From: Rhodothermia bacterium
GTDB lineage: Bacteria; Bacteroidota; Rhodothermia; Rhodothermales; UBA2364
Assembly (NCBI GenBank): GCA_017303715.1
Contig: JAFLBZ010000033.1
Span: 1-50,408 of the forward strand
Direction: 5' to 3'
Length of the DNA: 50,408 nucleotides
Shown: piece after piece, positions 20,554 through 29,395 of the stretch
Layout: every line of letters starts with the position of its first letter
Numbering within the stretch: position 1 is the stretch's first letter
Made by a program: the position numbers and the translations under genes
The notes under the pieces: model-generated
The model's input: the letters and a program-made list of their open reading frames with translations, nothing else
Told to the model about the DNA's origin: nothing
Database searches by the model: none

Positions 20554-22017
20554 TCAATTTTTCTTTAGAACCTCAGCTTGCCAATTTGGACTTTTGCGCC
20601 CGCCGCTTACGGTTGTATGGATCAACTCAAATTCGCCGAATCCGCCCATATCTGCAAAGATGAACTCTGCACGTCCTTCGCCCGGAATATTGTTGTATTC
20701 CCAGATCTCATAAGGAACGGTTTCTCGTTTAGAAAGATTGGGCTGGGTAGCAGAAGGAAGACCATATTTTAGCAGAGTGCGCCCACGGTCTGTCTTCCAA
20801 CCCACGGTAAACTTATTGGAATAACGGTCTTTGGCAGTTCGTAAATTCTCATAAAACTCCATGCGATATTCGTTGATGGATGTTTGTGGATTGGGATCGT
20901 GGGCCAACCAAAAGTCGTACAGCCATCTGCGTTTTGCTTCTAAAGTCACCATTTTCGCCATCTGCCTTTCGTCGGTCAGTGTAGCCACAATTTTGATGTG
21001 TTCCATCTCATCCTTCACTTCTTCTTCGGTCATATTCACAAAGGCAGAGGCCAAGAAGTCTTCATCTGGGTCTATTTTGGCTTCAACGGCTTGAATGTTA
21101 GGGTTGTAAACAAAGAATTTACGCTGTTGCTCTAAAACCGCTTCATTGTTTGCATTTAGAACTGCCACCCGCAAGAAATATGCACCAGAAACAAGTTTAC
21201 TAACATCAAACCCTCCCGTCAAGACTTCATTTTCGCGGAGGGGTCTTTTTTCACGGAGTTCTAAGCCCGGAAGTGCCTGCGGAGCTGTGGCCGCCGAGAC
21301 ATAGGCCAAAAAAGTAAACTCGTTTTGATCTGGATCTGTTTTGATGTGAGACATATTATATGCCTCTGCATAGAACAGTAATTTATCCATACCATTTCCA
21401 TACAACTGGTTTGAATTAGGCCGTACCGAAAGCCCGCTCCGATAAAACACATCATCCCTATTGGCCGAAGGTTCAAGGGCGGAAACAAACATAATATCCG
21501 ACATCATCGCACTTACAGGCTGTGGCGCAAAATTCCGCACACTCACTTGACGGGTCAAGGTTTCGCCTACAATTCCCAGACTGGCATCAGGCAAAATCCT
21601 TAATGCAAGTTCGTATTCACCGGGTGGTACTAAATCCCTAAATAGGTGCTGAAAAACCTGACTGCTACCAATGTACGTGGTGTCTGCAATCGGGAAAGCA
21701 AGCCGGAGGGCCTCGCCCTTTACAGTTTCCGCAGCCGTTTGGCCGTTGCTTTGTACCGTATTGCGGGTAAGTTTCCATTGCAGCGGAACCAACGCCACCA
21801 AGCCCCCTTCGGGCGCGGATCTAAAGGGCAACGTTTTTACCTCGAAAGACAAGTAGATTTCAAATAGGCTTGAATTTGCATCATAAGCAAACGTTGCATA
21901 ATCCATGCTGACTTTGACCCGCCGCGATGGAACCTCCTCTTGGGCATATAAGGACTGAAAAGCAGACGGACATAGAATCAATAAAAACAATAAGATACGA
22001 CAACAAAGCGATTGCAT
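20554..22017 (-). CDS. GWxTD domain-containing exported protein
   Basis: This 487-residue protein has a signal peptide (about 1-25, LLFLLILCPSAFQSLYAQ). Its middle part is beta-rich and resembles the repetitive sandwich region of this family. The C-terminal ~130 residues hold the defining signature, GWKTDRGR near residue 402, followed by LLKYGLPSA and PYEIWEYNNIPG. GWxTD proteins occur mainly in Bacteroidota, Ignavibacteria and Acidobacteriota; their function is not established. It lies on the same strand as the UbiA-like and muramidase genes but about 130 bases downstream of them, so cotranscription is uncertain. Lack of a T9SS sorting domain suggests a periplasmic or outer-membrane-associated location. 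Confidence 0.88.
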   Translation of the reverse strand: MQSLCCRILLFLLILCPSAFQSLYAQEEVPSRRVKVSMDYATFAYDANSSLFEIYLSFEVKTLPFRSAPEGGLVALVPLQWKLTRNTVQSNGQTAAETVKGEALRLAFPIADTTYIGSSQVFQHLFRDLVPPGEYELALRILPDASLGIVGETLTRQVSVRNFAPQPVSAMMSDIMFVSALEPSANRDDVFYRSGLSVRPNSNQLYGNGMDKLLFYAEAYNMSHIKTDPDQNEFTFLAYVSAATAPQALPGLELREKRPLRENEVLTGGFDVSKLVSGAYFLRVAVLNANNEAVLEQQRKFFVYNPNIQAVEAKIDPDEDFLASAFVNMTEEEVKDEMEHIKIVATLTDERQMAKMVTLEAKRRWLYDFWLAHDPNPQTSINEYRMEFYENLRTAKDRYSNKFTVGWKTDRGRTLLKYGLPSATQPNLSKRETVPYEIWEYNNIPGEGRAEFIFADMGGFGEFELIHTTVSGGRKSPNWQAEVLKKN

Positions 22018-22149: not shown

Positions 22150-22959
22150 TTAAAATACATAGCCCAAAATAGGCCAAGCCACCAATAAATCCATTCCATG
22201 TCGGTACATCGAAGAGGGTGATACCAAACTCCCAAAAGCCGATAACACAACCAATCCTATATAATCTACAACGGGAAAAGCCGTTTGCAACCAAAGCACA
22301 TAACCCACTAAGGCAAAAAGCCCCATTACACCCCTCATTTGCGCCAATGTACATTTCTGAAAAGGGGTTTTAATCCCGTTTGAAGCATCGCCAGCCCGAT
22401 CCAAGTAATCCAAGATCAAAATATTTGGGAGGATATAAATTGCCCGATAAAGAACAACCCAAATCAGCCCAAGGAAGAGAGGAGTTTGGGCAATCCAAAA
22501 AGGCAGGATCACACCACTGAACCCCCACGCAAAAACAATCCAAAAGGGCTTAATGACTCCGAAAGCCTTTATCCGTTTCCCAAAAATCAACGGATAAACA
22601 TACATTAATGCCAAAACCGTTGGGATAAAGAGGTAATACCAGACAGAAAAGGGGAGCCAAAACACACATATGAATGTCACCACCCAAGAACATGCTGCCC
22701 AAAAAAGAAGGCCAAATGCAGACCTATGTTTGGCATTATTAAACGCATCTTCGGGAGACAAAAAAGGGAGTTTATCTATTGTATAAACCAAAAACGTACC
22801 ACTATAGGCCAATACCAAAAAAGCCACCCCCAAGTGCAGGTTATATGCCTTTGCTGTTGCCAAAAGCCAAGCGATGGCTACAAATCCCGCAATGGCAGCG
22901 CCAATCGGAAATGATCTAAGCGCGGATGCCCAATTGTTTGGCTTCGGCAAGTGCATCAT
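22150..22959 (-). CDS. UbiA-like polytopic membrane protein
   Basis: This 269-residue protein has about eight hydrophobic helices. Two polar loops resemble the aspartate-rich motifs of UbiA prenyltransferases: YTIDKLPFLSPEDAFN near residue 58, a weakened form of NDxxDxxxD, and LDYLDRAGDASNGIKT near 185, close to the family's second motif with its trailing G-KT. Members move polyprenyl or phytyl chains onto aromatic or other acceptors. With a partly lost first motif, activity and substrate are uncertain, and it may belong to a family I do not recognise. The start overlaps the end of the muramidase gene by 44 bases on the same strand, suggesting translational coupling; no later Met gives a sensible start. 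Confidence 0.6.
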   Translation of the reverse strand: MMHLPKPNNWASALRSFPIGAAIAGFVAIAWLLATAKAYNLHLGVAFLVLAYSGTFLVYTIDKLPFLSPEDAFNNAKHRSAFGLLFWAACSWVVTFICVFWLPFSVWYYLFIPTVLALMYVYPLIFGKRIKAFGVIKPFWIVFAWGFSGVILPFWIAQTPLFLGLIWVVLYRAIYILPNILILDYLDRAGDASNGIKTPFQKCTLAQMRGVMGLFALVGYVLWLQTAFPVVDYIGLVVLSAFGSLVSPSSMYRHGMDLLVAWPILGYVF

Positions 22960-24202
22960 TTATGAGTTTAGAATACGTCTCTACCTGCCCAGAACCATTA
23001 TAATATTGGGTAAAAGTGCGTATTTTTCCTTCCTTTAGGTAGCGAATCATTGCCCCTGCCTCTGGTGCCTTTACGTTTCTACAAAAATCAAAAAAGCCTA
23101 AAATATGCGATGCCTCGCCTGCCTGAAAGGCATTATACATGGCCATTGCACTCTCATAACCGATGTTTCGATAAGCGGAAATTAGAATTTGAGGCCCACC
23201 AATGCTACAAGACATGAGTCCAGATTCTGGATCTCCAGCCAAGCGTTGCGACAATGCCAGAACGCGGTATTCCAAATCCTGTTTACCGTGAAAAGGCTTA
23301 AAAGGCTCGTTTAACGTCTCTCGAAAGCGATGGTTTTGCCAAGAGTTGCCACCAATGCCAGCCTGTCCGCCATGCTGGAAGTGGCGGTTATACACCGCTT
23401 CATTATACTTTCCCCAATAACGGAAGAAATGATGGTTTTCAAATCGAATAATTGCACGGTTTTGGACATGCACCCGACCACCACTTTCCACATAAAAGAC
23501 CGCCAAAGCCGACTCAACCGGAATCTCGGTCAAACTGTGTATCGCCCGAATCAACCCCCCCATCCGGTTATACAATTCCCCCATCCTTACCCTACTTGCG
23601 GGCCAACCAGCGCGAATCACAATGGGTGTAGCAGGAGTAAGTTGGATGTTTTTCAGAATGGGGTTGTCTTTATAATAAGGAGACTCCAAATGTACCTTAA
23701 AGAGTGCAGCCCAAGTACCCGACCCAACGATTCCATCATCCTTTAAGCTACTGGCTTTTTGAAACTGTTTTACCAAGCTCTCGGTAAAGGGGCCAAATCG
23801 TCCGTCAATATTTCCAACCGGATAGCCTTTATCTCGTAGTACACTTTGTAGTTCCCGAACAGCATCGCGGAGGTGCGGAGTGACATGGTCAAAACCGTCG
23901 TAAAGCCGTAATAAGGGCCGATCGTTCACGTAGAGCGCAGCCCACGTTTTCCGCCCCACTACCCCATCATCATTCAGTCCCTTCCCTCGCTGAAAAGCCA
24001 CAACGGCTTCTTTGGTTTGTACACCAAACACGCCATCTTGTGGGATTTCAAACCCTCTGTTTCGGAGTAATTTTTGCAATTCCACAACGTATGGCTTCAG
24101 TTCCGAGGTTTCCGGCGTCTTCCCATCGTGGAGTTCAATGGTTGGGCGATCATTCACAGACAGCGACGCGCCAGCGGAAGAGATAGAGACTGGATTGGGC
24201 AT
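22916..24202 (-). CDS. N-acetylmuramidase with two peptidoglycan-binding domains
   Basis: This 428-residue protein has two tandem PG_binding_1 domains of about 77 residues (15-91 and 92-168). Both begin VNDRP and end TWAAL, an internal duplication. The C-terminal part (about 200-428) matches the N-acetylmuramidase (DUF3380) domain, with VFYVESGG (Glu239) and IIRFENHHFFRYWG (Glu255) as likely catalytic or structural acidic residues, and a conserved SCSIGGPQI segment. No signal peptide is visible. Such architecture is common in phage endolysins and contractile-tail-associated lysins, but no phage genes flank it. It may be exported by a non-Sec route or released on lysis; that is inference. The next gene overlaps its 3' end. 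Confidence 0.85.
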   Translation of the reverse strand: MPNPVSISSAGASLSVNDRPTIELHDGKTPETSELKPYVVELQKLLRNRGFEIPQDGVFGVQTKEAVVAFQRGKGLNDDGVVGRKTWAALYVNDRPLLRLYDGFDHVTPHLRDAVRELQSVLRDKGYPVGNIDGRFGPFTESLVKQFQKASSLKDDGIVGSGTWAALFKVHLESPYYKDNPILKNIQLTPATPIVIRAGWPASRVRMGELYNRMGGLIRAIHSLTEIPVESALAVFYVESGGRVHVQNRAIIRFENHHFFRYWGKYNEAVYNRHFQHGGQAGIGGNSWQNHRFRETLNEPFKPFHGKQDLEYRVLALSQRLAGDPESGLMSCSIGGPQILISAYRNIGYESAMAMYNAFQAGEASHILGFFDFCRNVKAPEAGAMIRYLKEGKIRTFTQYYNGSGQVETYSKLINDALAEAKQLGIRA

Positions 24203-24432: not shown

Positions 24433-25341
24433 TCATTCAAACTCCTTCATGGCGATTTGCCACGCCCCTTCCACAGGTGTATGTTTTGCAGGTACAATTT
24501 GCCAATGGCCTAATTTCCGAGCCAATACTTCATGCAAAGCATTTCGGTAATATTCATTGTTGTATAAACCGCCAATAAAGGCAAGTTGATGTTTCAGATG
24601 TGCATCAAAACGGTGCGCAAGGCGGCAAATATGGGTTGCAATGCCTTCTGCTTGTTCAGAAACGATCTCTACGGCAGGCGCATCGCCCATTTCGGCAGCT
24701 TCTAAGACCAAAGGAGCAATGTGTTGAATGGGACGCTGGCTCCGATACACATAATCGAGAAGTGTAGAGCGGTTAGACATTTGTAGGCGCTCGGCGAACA
24801 GCTGCCTTAGTAAGGGATGTTCTTGTTCGTCAATGGCATGAGCTACTGCCTTCAATCCAGCCAAACCGATGGCCATTCCACTTCCTTCGTCTCCGATAAG
24901 ATAGCCCCAAGCCCCTGTATTCACCAAACGGCCTTCGTGGGTTTTCCCCAGCACATTGGAACCCGTCCCCACAATGGTAAGCAAGCCACTCCCCCCTACA
25001 AGTGCCCCTTCTAAAGCAATATTGGCATCATTAAGCAACCGAAAGGGCAGCCCCAGCGCCTCGGAAACCTCTCGTTCCAAGACGGGAGTAAGCGCATTCG
25101 GCATGTCTGAGGTTCCAGCTCCGGCGGCTCCCGCACAAATCCCGCCGACCTGCAAATCAGGGAAAGCCTCGATAGCTCTTGTCACCAAGGAGATCAGGAT
25201 TTCTTTTGCTCGGTCTTTAGAAATACGATAGAGGTTGATGCCCGCATCCGATAGCGTAAAATCGCGTTTTTTGTCTGGTGTTGCGCCCCATAAAACGGTT
25301 TTTGTTCCGCCGGCATCAATACCAAAATACACCTTTTGCAT
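24433..25341 (-). CDS. BadF/BadG/BcrA/BcrD-type ATPase, GlcNAc-kinase-like
   Basis: This 302-residue protein is an ASKHA-fold sugar-kinase-type ATPase. The phosphate 1 motif FGIDAGGTKT is at the N-terminus, LLNDANIALEGA near residue 100 is the second conserved segment, and IVGTGSNVLG with GWGYLIGDEGSG near 118-155 is typical of bacterial and animal N-acetylglucosamine kinases. Phosphorylation of GlcNAc or a related amino sugar, perhaps from recycled peptidoglycan, is the best guess. It is the last gene of a tight unit, 13 bases after the penicillin-acylase-like gene. Its length is normal for the family. Confidence 0.85.
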   Translation of the reverse strand: MQKVYFGIDAGGTKTVLWGATPDKKRDFTLSDAGINLYRISKDRAKEILISLVTRAIEAFPDLQVGGICAGAAGAGTSDMPNALTPVLEREVSEALGLPFRLLNDANIALEGALVGGSGLLTIVGTGSNVLGKTHEGRLVNTGAWGYLIGDEGSGMAIGLAGLKAVAHAIDEQEHPLLRQLFAERLQMSNRSTLLDYVYRSQRPIQHIAPLVLEAAEMGDAPAVEIVSEQAEGIATHICRLAHRFDAHLKHQLAFIGGLYNNEYYRNALHEVLARKLGHWQIVPAKHTPVEGAWQIAMKEFE

Positions 25342-25354
25342 ATGTTACCTTCTC

Positions 25355-27421
25355 TTAACTCGCCGGAATAAGTTGGGTTTTACCGATTAACTCCACGTCC
25401 CTTCGTTGGTCTAACTCAATGAATTGCTGCCGGTCTGCAATGCTATACCGCGAGAGCATTTCCTCATGGATTAAGTTGGCACGCTGGATGACCCAAGACT
25501 CCGAAGAGCGGTTCGCAAACCAACCTTCCCAAACCGAGGGTGAGGGCAAATCTGTCAACATCCGCGTAGCACGCCATTGTAAAGTTGTGGGATGTCCGGT
25601 ATGTGCGATCCGAATGGGTGCAAAACGGTTATTGGCCAATTTTCCTGAGGAGAGCGGGATAAAATTGGCAGACCATAAGGGGTAATATACCAAACCCACC
25701 TGCGTAAGTCCCCATTGGAAGGAGCTAAAGTCGCGTGGTGAGCTATCTTTATCTTTAAACCGGCTCACTACCGAGATCAAGGTTTTCTTCAGTTTCAGGC
25801 TATTTTGGGCTGTTTTTGCAGAGTCTAGGCCCGCAAACATGGTGGAATCGGGCGGAGGTATAGACGACCAGCCTTTATAATATTCTGCCATCCAAGCATC
25901 AAAAACGGAGGCCGCAATACTTTCATTGCTAAAGTCATATTTCCAGTTTCTGAGGTAGGTTAGGGCGTCTTTTGCGGCATAGGTAAGGTCTTTCCGCTTT
26001 TCCATCATACCGAGCAAGCCTTTCACAACAGGTCGGACGAAGGGGCTGTAAGAATCCTCGAATTTCCCCAGAAATTGTGGTGGCGTAAGGCCACTGGCAA
26101 GGACTTGACGAAGCCTCGTGGCGGTATGGCTTGCCCAAGGTGAGTCCGAAATTAATATACCATTCGGGAGGTTTTCGCGAACCAAAGGCTGTCCTCGAAC
26201 CGACCATCGCCCTTCATTCGTAAGCAAAAGTCCATTCCCTTTAAATAACCGAAACGTCACACCAGTTGTATCTCCACGCAAAAGGTTACGGAAGGAAGCT
26301 TGATCACTCAAGGCACGAAAACCCGGCCAACCAAACTTCCATACAAAACCAACGGTTGTATCACGCTCCACCAAAAGGGTATCTTGTACCATTTTTCTGT
26401 ACTTCTTTTTAAACGACTCTGGTAGAAAAAAGGAACTTCCATTTGAGCGGATGGTCACCAAGGTTTCATTGCCCTCCATATCCCGCACCACACGGTTTTC
26501 TGGCACAATGAGGCTGTCGGCTCCTTTGGGCAAACGTTCTGCGGTGAAAGCACTCGTGAGTAAGAAATGCCAAGAAAGCCGTTCATTTCTTCCAGACGGA
26601 AAAAGGAGGGTTCCGGGAATGCTTAGGACTTCGTTTTTCCCATCTCCCCAGTTCAAAACCACCTCTTGCACCAATGGCCATGCGGTAGCGCCATAAACAT
26701 GGCGATGAAAGAAATAGGTATCCCGACTTTGACGCGCCACCCAAGCCATCCCATTTTCAAAACCATGCAAACGCAAGAATTTTTTCACCACCTTTTGTTC
26801 GGCCATAAATTTTTCGAACATGGGTTGCAAGGTATCCGCAGCGGTTTTTTTATAGGGTTCTGCCCCAACCCAAGCCAATAAATGTTCTATTGCAAGGCAA
26901 TGCCAAGGCTCCCAGCGCTTAGGCTTCAGTCCAGATAGCAATAAATCGTCATTCACCTGTTCATTTGGATGTTCAAAGACCGCATTTATGCCATTGGTAT
27001 AGGCGACGAGGCGGTTTTTCTCTTCGGGCCGAAGTTGCCGATAAGCCGCATAAGCCATTTTGCCGATTCCCATTGTTTTGGACATCCGGTCTATAATGGC
27101 CGTAGTATCTCCGGGGAACCATTGCCCCGTTTCGCCAAGAGCAACTTGTCGCCAGACGGCCATTGGCAGTGCGTGGCGTAGCGCATGGCTGTACCCCAAT
27201 CCGGCCAAGCCATCAGACTCCGACGACGCCCGAATGACTGGAATACGGTCTTTCCGCCATTCTACGGACACATTCCCACGCAAATTCCTGATTTTCACTT
27301 CTGCGCTATAATCGGTTTTGAAGGCATATGAAAACCAAAAGGTGATGCCTAAAACAAACAGACCCACAACCGAAAATAGCAGGACAAGGGCAAAGATATT
27401 TTGGAACCTATTGATGAACAC
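25355..27421 (-). CDS. Penicillin acylase family protein lacking the nucleophile serine
   Basis: This 688-residue protein has an N-terminal membrane anchor (about 10-33) and the penicillin acylase layout: RDRIPVIRA-like start (WRKDRIPVIRAS, 55-66), DGLAGLGYSHALRH (70-83), and RLVAYTNGINAV (137-148). In active members autocleavage exposes a serine in a GSNNWVVS-like motif; here the region reads ENGMAWVARQS (222-232) and the serine position is Gly224. GRNERLSWHF near 285 keeps the later conserved Asn. Autoprocessing and amidase activity are therefore unlikely. It lies 12 bases after the PolX-like gene and 13 before the kinase gene. A binding or scaffold role is only speculation. Confidence 0.82.
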   Translation of the reverse strand: MFINRFQNIFALVLLFSVVGLFVLGITFWFSYAFKTDYSAEVKIRNLRGNVSVEWRKDRIPVIRASSESDGLAGLGYSHALRHALPMAVWRQVALGETGQWFPGDTTAIIDRMSKTMGIGKMAYAAYRQLRPEEKNRLVAYTNGINAVFEHPNEQVNDDLLLSGLKPKRWEPWHCLAIEHLLAWVGAEPYKKTAADTLQPMFEKFMAEQKVVKKFLRLHGFENGMAWVARQSRDTYFFHRHVYGATAWPLVQEVVLNWGDGKNEVLSIPGTLLFPSGRNERLSWHFLLTSAFTAERLPKGADSLIVPENRVVRDMEGNETLVTIRSNGSSFFLPESFKKKYRKMVQDTLLVERDTTVGFVWKFGWPGFRALSDQASFRNLLRGDTTGVTFRLFKGNGLLLTNEGRWSVRGQPLVRENLPNGILISDSPWASHTATRLRQVLASGLTPPQFLGKFEDSYSPFVRPVVKGLLGMMEKRKDLTYAAKDALTYLRNWKYDFSNESIAASVFDAWMAEYYKGWSSIPPPDSTMFAGLDSAKTAQNSLKLKKTLISVVSRFKDKDSSPRDFSSFQWGLTQVGLVYYPLWSANFIPLSSGKLANNRFAPIRIAHTGHPTTLQWRATRMLTDLPSPSVWEGWFANRSSESWVIQRANLIHEEMLSRYSIADRQQFIELDQRRDVELIGKTQLIPAS

Positions 27422-27433
27422 AGTAAACTTGGT

Positions 27434-29131
27434 TTATGCAGGTAAGTGGAGGTTGGTCTTTTTTTGTTTAAGCCACTGTTCAAACGCTATTCGCGGCAAC
27501 GCATTTAAGCAATTTTCGGGCGTCAGCCCAGCCTTTCTTGCAACTTCTACCCCCCAAAATACATCCTGAAGCCCCTCTTTTGCATGTGCATCTGGATTAA
27601 TTGAAATCCAAACGCCTTTTTCAAGTGCATACGGAATCCACTTCCAATCCATGTCTAAACGATAGGGATTAGCATTGAGTTCAATCGCTACCCCATTTGC
27701 AGCACAAGCGTCAATGATTTTGTGGTGATTTACCGGATAGCCTTCACGCGCAAGCAGCAGTCTTCCGGTCGGGTGTCCCAAAATTGTAGTAAATGGATTT
27801 TCTATGGCCGTAATTAACCGCTGGGTTGCGGCTTCCTCCGTCATGTTAAAACCATTGTGGATGCTTGCAACAACGAGGTCAAAAGAAGCTAAAATCTCTT
27901 TCGGGTAATCTAATGCACCATCGTTCAAAATATCGCTCTCGATTCCTGAATAAATGCGAAAATTCACGCCCATTTGTGCATAAGCGGCATTATGTTGAGC
28001 AATTTCGGCTTGTTGCGCCTGTACACGTTCAATGCTCATGCCGTGCGCGATAGTTAAGGACTGGCTATGGTCACATGAGCCATAATATGCTAAGCCCATT
28101 TCGCGTGCAGCTTCAGCCATTTCGTACAACGTATGAGCGCCGTCGCTATAGGTAGAGTGGTTATGGAGTGTGCCCTTGAGGTCACTCACTTCAAGCAGTT
28201 TATGACCACGAAGTTCAACTTCCGAGCGTTCCGCAGGGGCTAAGTCCCGCAACTCGGGGTCAACAAAGGTCATTCCCGCTTGTTCAAACAACAATGCCTC
28301 ATCCGAGACCAAAGGCAGCGCACCAGATTTCCTCATGAACGCTTCAATAAAAGAGGTTGGCCCGGTCTTTAGGAATACTTCCGTCCCAAAACGCTCCGAC
28401 TCCGCCCAAATAAACGTAACCTCGAAGCCATCTGGTAACAATGCTTTCCAAGTATTCGTCCCTACGGCCTCCGTCTTTATTTCTAATGCACTTAGCGCTG
28501 TTAGAACATGTGCTTCGTGTGTGGCTTTTAACAAAACGGTAACTTCGGAGACGGTCGGCATTTTACGACGAAATTCCCCCACCGGCATACATTGTACCGT
28601 TCCAGTGTGTTTCTCAAGCGTTTCTAAAAGTGGCATGAGCAAGCGATAGACTGTAGCATAACGCCTTTGCGAGCGATAGACTTCTTGCAATGCGATAGAA
28701 GCTAAAATCTGTTCTTGCGTTTTTTTACCAAAACCTTCTGCATCGAGCAAGCGGTTTTCGCGAGCCGCCACCGCCAATTCTTCTAAAGAGGTAATGCCCA
28801 AACCTTGCCACAAAGCACGTACTTTTTTCACCCCCAGACCCTTAATTTTCAAAACTTCTGGCAAACCTTGTGGGAGTTTATCGGCCAATTCTTTGCGTTG
28901 TGGCAAAGCACCTGTTTCCACCAATGTTGCGATGTCCTTGGCCAAGCTACTTCCGATCCCTTGCACCTCGGTTAATCGCCCCTCAGACAACAAGTCCTGT
29001 ACTTGCTCCGGCAACCGTTGTAGCAAACGTGCAGCATTGGCAAAAGCCCGTACCCGAAAAGAATTCCCGCCCGTAAGTTCAAGTAAATCCGCAACTTCTT
29101 GCAAGGATTTTGCAATTTGTTTATTCGTCAT
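27434..29131 (-). CDS. PolX-like protein with inactive polymerase site and intact PHP domain
   Basis: The protein has 565 residues from the ATG at 29131; an upstream ATG at 29158 adds nine. Layout follows bacterial PolX: an 8-kDa-like and helix-hairpin-helix region (about 1-150, with VQGIGSSLAKDI and IKGLGVKKVRALW), a polymerase palm/fingers region (about 155-300) and a C-terminal PHP domain (about 318-565). The palm motif GS-RR...DxD reads GEFRRKMPTVSEVTV, so both aspartates are replaced (Glu196, Thr198); the third is Thr239 in FEVTFIW. PHP metal ligands appear intact (H323, H325, D330, H355, then IESD, SIHNG, GHPTGR, NPDAH). A 3'-5' exonuclease or other phosphoesterase without polymerase activity is likely. 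Confidence 0.88.
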   Translation of the reverse strand: MTNKQIAKSLQEVADLLELTGGNSFRVRAFANAARLLQRLPEQVQDLLSEGRLTEVQGIGSSLAKDIATLVETGALPQRKELADKLPQGLPEVLKIKGLGVKKVRALWQGLGITSLEELAVAARENRLLDAEGFGKKTQEQILASIALQEVYRSQRRYATVYRLLMPLLETLEKHTGTVQCMPVGEFRRKMPTVSEVTVLLKATHEAHVLTALSALEIKTEAVGTNTWKALLPDGFEVTFIWAESERFGTEVFLKTGPTSFIEAFMRKSGALPLVSDEALLFEQAGMTFVDPELRDLAPAERSEVELRGHKLLEVSDLKGTLHNHSTYSDGAHTLYEMAEAAREMGLAYYGSCDHSQSLTIAHGMSIERVQAQQAEIAQHNAAYAQMGVNFRIYSGIESDILNDGALDYPKEILASFDLVVASIHNGFNMTEEAATQRLITAIENPFTTILGHPTGRLLLAREGYPVNHHKIIDACAANGVAIELNANPYRLDMDWKWIPYALEKGVWISINPDAHAKEGLQDVFWGVEVARKAGLTPENCLNALPRIAFEQWLKQKKTNLHLPA

Positions 29132-29395
29132 GACAAACAGTTTGTGAGGAAGCAACAAATATTGGCTAAATTGTGTATCTTAGTTGTTTAAACCAAGCCT
29201 TAAGGAATTACCCACGTTCGTCCTTCAGTCTAAGCCAACTGAAAGCCGTTGTGGCGGCAAATTAAGAAAAACTTTACCTGCACCACAGAACAAGTCTTTT
29301 TCTTTTCCGTAATTCCTGACCAATTTTGTTCTTTTGGGAAAAGGTGACCAGCCAGATAACGTCCTTTCCCTTTCCGTTCATCAATCTTTACCAAA

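Follow-up and report, generated by a model that had tools for sequence, protein, structure and literature searches.

A shortened paralogue family of penicillin acylases is kept across a single bacterial order, the Rhodothermales, and the 688-residue protein described here is one of its members; this much is well supported. Penicillin acylases are textbook self-cutting enzymes. The present protein, encoded within the 50,408-nucleotide stretch of Rhodothermia DNA that was analysed (the window), is probably an unprocessed single-chain, non-hydrolysing, membrane-anchored binder or scaffold that has no Ntn-hydrolase active site and comes from this order-wide family. An order-wide family that lacks the self-cutting site and outlasts the active enzyme would provide a clear example from nature of a fold reused without its chemistry, and for the 110 genes found the annotation ‘penicillin acylase’ would probably be misleading. 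The fold family itself is not new; the open-licence literature searched yielded no case of its natural reuse across an order in the absence of the active site, and no report on a dead penicillin-acylase family. The family would also offer a natural test of the claim, based on mutants of MacQ, that the N-terminal nucleophile is dispensable (PMC5566955). The features of the window that bear on these points are collected in Table 1.

Table 1. Coordinates, in the window, of the degenerate acylase gene, its parts and its neighbours
Feature	Position	Strand	Basis
Degenerate penicillin-acylase-family protein gene	25355..27421	minus	ORF, 688 aa, GTG start
E222-N-G-M-A-W227, counterpart of the G-S-N-N-W self-cleavage motif	26741..26758	minus	
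Gly224 codon, in place of the nucleophile Ser	26750-26752	minus	Profile alignments
Hydrophobic N-terminal helix, residues 2-33, probable membrane anchor	27323..27418	minus	Kyte-Doolittle
Alpha-subunit-like part, residues 51-198 (PF01804 positions 2-150)	26828..27271	minus	Pfam
Late beta-subunit part, second PF01804 stretch (profile 429-577)	25706..26131	minus	Pfam
MurNAc/GlcNAc-type kinase (BcrAD_BadFG family) gene	24433..25341	minus	PF01869, 66 bits
PolX-like protein with PHP domain gene	27434..29158	minus	Pfam HHH + PHP
Muramidase with two peptidoglycan-binding domains and an N-acetylmuramidase domain	22916-24202	minus	Pfam; adjoins kinase
GWxTD-domain protein (PF20094)	20554-22017	minus	Pfam

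Membership in the penicillin acylase family PF01804 (MEROPS family S45) had been proposed in a preliminary description of this DNA and was borne out by a profile search (110.8 bits against a cut-off of 21.3; E 1.3e-31). The Pfam profile aligns with the protein in two stretches only, which flank the catalytic centre and leave the nucleophile region unscored; it is also matched, at E 0.01 or better, by 30 of 30 members of an alignment of the degenerate family. A profile built from that family matched, among solved structures, the acylase alpha chain 4hsr_A (E 1e-38). AlphaFold modelling of the window protein and its near copy (L034) gave a low-confidence model (pLDDT 32, pTM 0.21), in which residues 2-33 are the sole stretch with a pLDDT of 60-80. 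The hydrophobicity of this N-terminal helix peaks at 2.77 over 19 residues on the Kyte-Doolittle scale, and all 91 members measured begin with such a hydrophobic segment, one of them having a second strong one; this supports the membrane anchor foreseen in the preliminary description.

That a glycine occupies the place of the self-cleaving serine, a claim first drawn from the motif, is confirmed by profile-level sequence comparison and so rests on more than a motif reading. The sole other PF01804 gene of the genome, L001, lies on a different contig, scores 622 bits and encodes a canonical paralogue with an intact G-S-N-N-F motif. Its Ser293 aligns to residue 1 of PDB beta chains, for example those of penicillin G acylase (1gk9_B) and PvdQ (2wyb_B) as well as 1ghd_B and 4hsr_B; glutaryl acylases are also among the enzymes represented. 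With Ser293 numbered as residue 1, the conserved His of L001 is residue 23, and a His stands at beta 23 in 30 of 30 canonical paralogues. A 92-row alignment of the degenerate family was compared by hhalign with these 30 canonical paralogues (probability 99.9-100%), and 20 of 20 runs, which comprised global and local alignments, Ser-only rows, non-Ser rows and random subsets, paired Gly224 with Ser293 and W227 with Phe296 of L001. All 30 canonical members retain the G, the S and the N of the motif, so the mismatch at Gly224 is not to be put down to looseness of the motif. Ser232, which had been named as a candidate replacement nucleophile, is not a conserved residue: it sits in a loop prone to gaps, and 22 of 92 members have Ser there. 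Canonical paralogues also carry the later His, Asn and Arg, each in 30 of 30. In active acylases, the conserved Asn is the oxyanion Asn and is followed by Arg. Loss of the His, Asn and Arg from the degenerate family is not claimed, because their registers are not firm: hhalign places the catalytic His on V242 or Y243 and MAFFT places it on H241 (the H241 column, itself of unstable register, is His in 41 of 92 members), while the oxyanion Asn lands on N396 in some hhalign runs and elsewhere on F390 or on no residue at all (the similarly unstable N396 column is Asn in 5 of 92).

Beyond the window protein, 92 of the 110 family members were fetched and aligned, several of them fragments cut by contigs. 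At the nucleophile column they carry Ser (56), Asn (14), Gly (11), Ala (7) or Asp (4), with Gly in 3 of 3 genomes of the present genus. The residues on either side have gone as well, Asn being found at position +1 in none of the 92 and Gly at position -1 in two. Between the W-x-P motif and the nucleophile, the degenerate family has a median of 52 residues versus 102 in the canonical paralogues; from the nucleophile onward the medians are 435 and 528.5. The former stretch includes the spacer that active acylases excise (PMC3461476). On a family tree that was built by a quick method with the motif columns left out, and that drew long-branch warnings including one for the branch of this genus, the site has changed between Ser and non-Ser at least 11 times, and among its five residue states at least 14 times. 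Given this number of changes, Gly224 would be one loss among many in an already degenerate site, and even the Ser-bearing members look catalytically dead; repeated change between Ser and non-Ser is what a residue that has ceased to be needed should show, although with Ser in 56 of 92 members some could still be active. The degenerate site of the preliminary description therefore stands, but not as the oddity of one protein, for it typifies an order-wide family in which 56 of 92 members keep Ser in a destroyed context.

In a protein search, each of 40 genomes gave a match, the protein's own genome among them, and the family profile has a strong match in 110 of 114 genomes of the host order, the four others (G323, G332, G333 and G348) being 62-87% complete and giving weak matches only. 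Within a sample of 296 Bacteroidota genomes, the family occurs in all 30 from the host order and, among the matches listed, in none of the 266 others; the matches listed from those 266 end in the alpha part or shortly after, at or before position 270 of the 660 in the profile, and mostly sit in frames 700-1000 aa long, which is the pattern that canonical acylases should give. The family profile found nothing in viral contigs. A search of the genome contigs with the single protein returned the near copy L034 and one further match, L035, which was set aside as a spurious relative, its ORF reading to us like a glycosyltransferase.

The gene is under purifying selection and is not decaying. Compared with two sister genomes, its pN/pS is 0.135 and 0.144, values through which omega is only bounded since dS is saturated even within the genus, and its dN in the same genomes is 0.11-0.12 versus 0.20 for the active paralogue. 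Conserved polar residues specific to the family include E179 (89 of 92 members), D373 (88 of 92), R91 (85 of 92), H610 (83 of 92), E319 (82 of 92) and R240 (79 of 92); in one hhalign run, the canonical columns aligned to them carry other residues. In addition, eight genomes (92-100% complete, seven of one genus and one other) lack a canonical acylase, and in 8 of 8 the sole PF01804 matches are the two halves of the degenerate gene; one of these genomes is a single contig with 100% completeness. The degenerate protein is thus not dependent on a canonical partner. At the other end of the range, the family f4 genomes G029 and G366 have several canonical PF01804 genes (5-6 matches), versus none in the Rhodothermus-like genomes.

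These data bear on several other readings of the protein. Were the glycine the mark of a recent loss in a single lineage, the gene would be a decaying gene or pseudogene, as the uniform Gly of the genus might suggest; such a history is most improbable for an intact ORF with a pN/pS of about 0.14 whose product changes more slowly than the active paralogue and whose relatives occur in 110 of the order's 114 genomes. The single canonical PF01804 paralogue of this genome invites the idea that the degenerate protein is a partner or decoy of L001, yet the two genes are on different contigs here and the eight genomes that retain the degenerate gene alone contradict the idea for the family as a whole, making it highly improbable. 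A mixed family, in which the Ser-bearing members are working Ntn hydrolases and activity has been lost in some lineages including this genus, would be in keeping with Ser as the commonest state and as the probable ancestral one, all 30 canonical relatives carrying Ser. We nonetheless regard it as unlikely: Asn at +1 is absent from all 56 Ser members, Gly at -1 is confined to two members overall, the spacer is short in nearly all members, and the site has repeatedly switched to and from Ser in a family that is otherwise retained.

The remaining alternative concerns chemistry of another kind, in which the uncut protein would cleave an acyl amide with a different set of residues. The preliminary description held that without the serine neither maturation nor hydrolysis should occur, and the two halves of that statement fare differently. 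The MacQ mutant S210A stays uncleaved and loses penicillin G hydrolysis, but it still degrades several AHLs, an activity left unexplained in the MacQ paper; a spacer-shortened MacQ (SPdelta7) also stays uncut (PMC5566955). Absence of maturation is thus very probable, whereas absence of hydrolysis does not follow from the missing Ser alone, given the AHL degradation by S210A. The family does own conserved charged residues that might serve such a reaction. Still, a serine-independent hydrolase is quite unlikely here, the precedent being an unexplained activity in a mutant that no longer acts on penicillin G, and the family having lost the entire G-S-N motif rather than the Ser only.

The genes around the degenerate acylase gene were compared at 41 loci, some of which end short. 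The PolX-like gene, which ends 12 bp before the degenerate gene, is directly upstream on the same strand in 28 of 41 loci, and the kinase gene, which starts 13 bp after it, is directly downstream on the same strand in 25; the other 16 showed no kinase next to the gene, though three of them have less than 1 kb of downstream flank. A divergent S41 protease gene is nearby in 33 of 41 loci, and farther out in relatives are genes for ExbB/ExbD, acetyl-CoA synthetase, PEPCK and isocitrate/isopropylmalate dehydrogenase. Many relatives (loci L097-L134, e.g. L120:13429-15591) have an ExbB/TolQ-like gene and two ExbD/TolR-like genes beyond the S41 protease, and these are absent at the corresponding place in the window. 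The conserved neighbourhood is therefore of a mixed housekeeping kind, which weakens any functional reading from neighbours. The muramidase next to the kinase was dropped as an operon partner, as neither the 40 flanks fetched from relatives (the sister species included) nor L034 contained a match. Active PolX polymerases have the palm motif G-x-x-R-R...G-D-x-D. In the PolX-like protein, Pfam matched the HHH and PHP domains and no polymerase palm; none of the 28 aligned copies (that of the window and 27 relatives) has the first Asp of the motif, and the second is often replaced, so that this neighbour of a dead acylase is itself probably polymerase-dead.

The kinase is the only recurrent neighbour that gives a clue to a ligand. 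Among solved proteins it is closest to a MurNAc/GlcNAc kinase (E 8.6e-28), and its score for the NCBIfam NagK model is 81.8, below the cut-off of 370; a characterised MurNAc kinase falls in its Pfam family (PMC5790795). For the homoserine lactone or lipopeptide ligand that had been suggested in the preliminary description, nothing was found that points in that direction.

Returning to the reading of the protein as a non-hydrolysing binder or scaffold, the following picture may be drawn. The chain would stay single and uncut, no self-cleavage being expected because MacQ S210A and the spacer-shortened MacQ both stay uncut and both changes occur naturally here. The N-terminal helix would fix the protein, most likely to the inner membrane; given an anchor of the usual orientation, the acylase-like domain would lie outside the cytoplasm, in the periplasm. 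The fold's shell appears to be kept, while the catalytic wall (the G-S-N motif and the spacer) would be replaced by the conserved residues of the family's own, which favours a binder or scaffold over a hydrolase; in the uncut chain the pocket would probably be partly filled, and the new conserved residues may form a binding or contact surface. Since nearly all relatives in the order keep the gene, some after losing the working enzyme, the degenerate family probably has a new, non-cutting job. The ligand or partner would most likely be a cell-envelope compound, with a wall-derived, muropeptide-like amide as the leading guess because a MurNAc/GlcNAc-type kinase adjoins; taken on its own, a muropeptide ligand is a guess that we hold to be distinctly unlikely. 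More broadly, and with considerable doubt, the family could consist of periplasmic receptors for wall-derived amides coupled to the cytosolic MurNAc/GlcNAc-type kinase, or else of nucleophile-free amide hydrolases like MacQ S210A, with the nucleophile position drifting among Ser, Gly, Asn, Ala and Asp and new charged residues fixed.

Among known systems, MacQ S210A and SPdelta7 resemble the degenerate family in that a Ser swap or a short spacer leaves the chain uncleaved, and they differ in being engineered within an otherwise intact site, with AHL activity partly left (PMC5566955). The Thermus PAC is membrane-bound (PMC3461476), and the degenerate protein likewise has an N-terminal membrane segment. 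With the penicillin acylases of PF01804 in general, it shares a homologous alpha-chain-like part, several structural Gly and Trp positions and the late beta part; it differs from them in lacking G-S-N, in a spacer of about half the length, in a shorter part after the nucleophile and in the Gly at the nucleophile position. Inactive proteasome beta subunits are also non-catalytic Ntn folds without a nucleophile and are used as scaffold; however, they belong to another family and are assembled with active copies, whereas the degenerate acylase stands alone in eight genomes.
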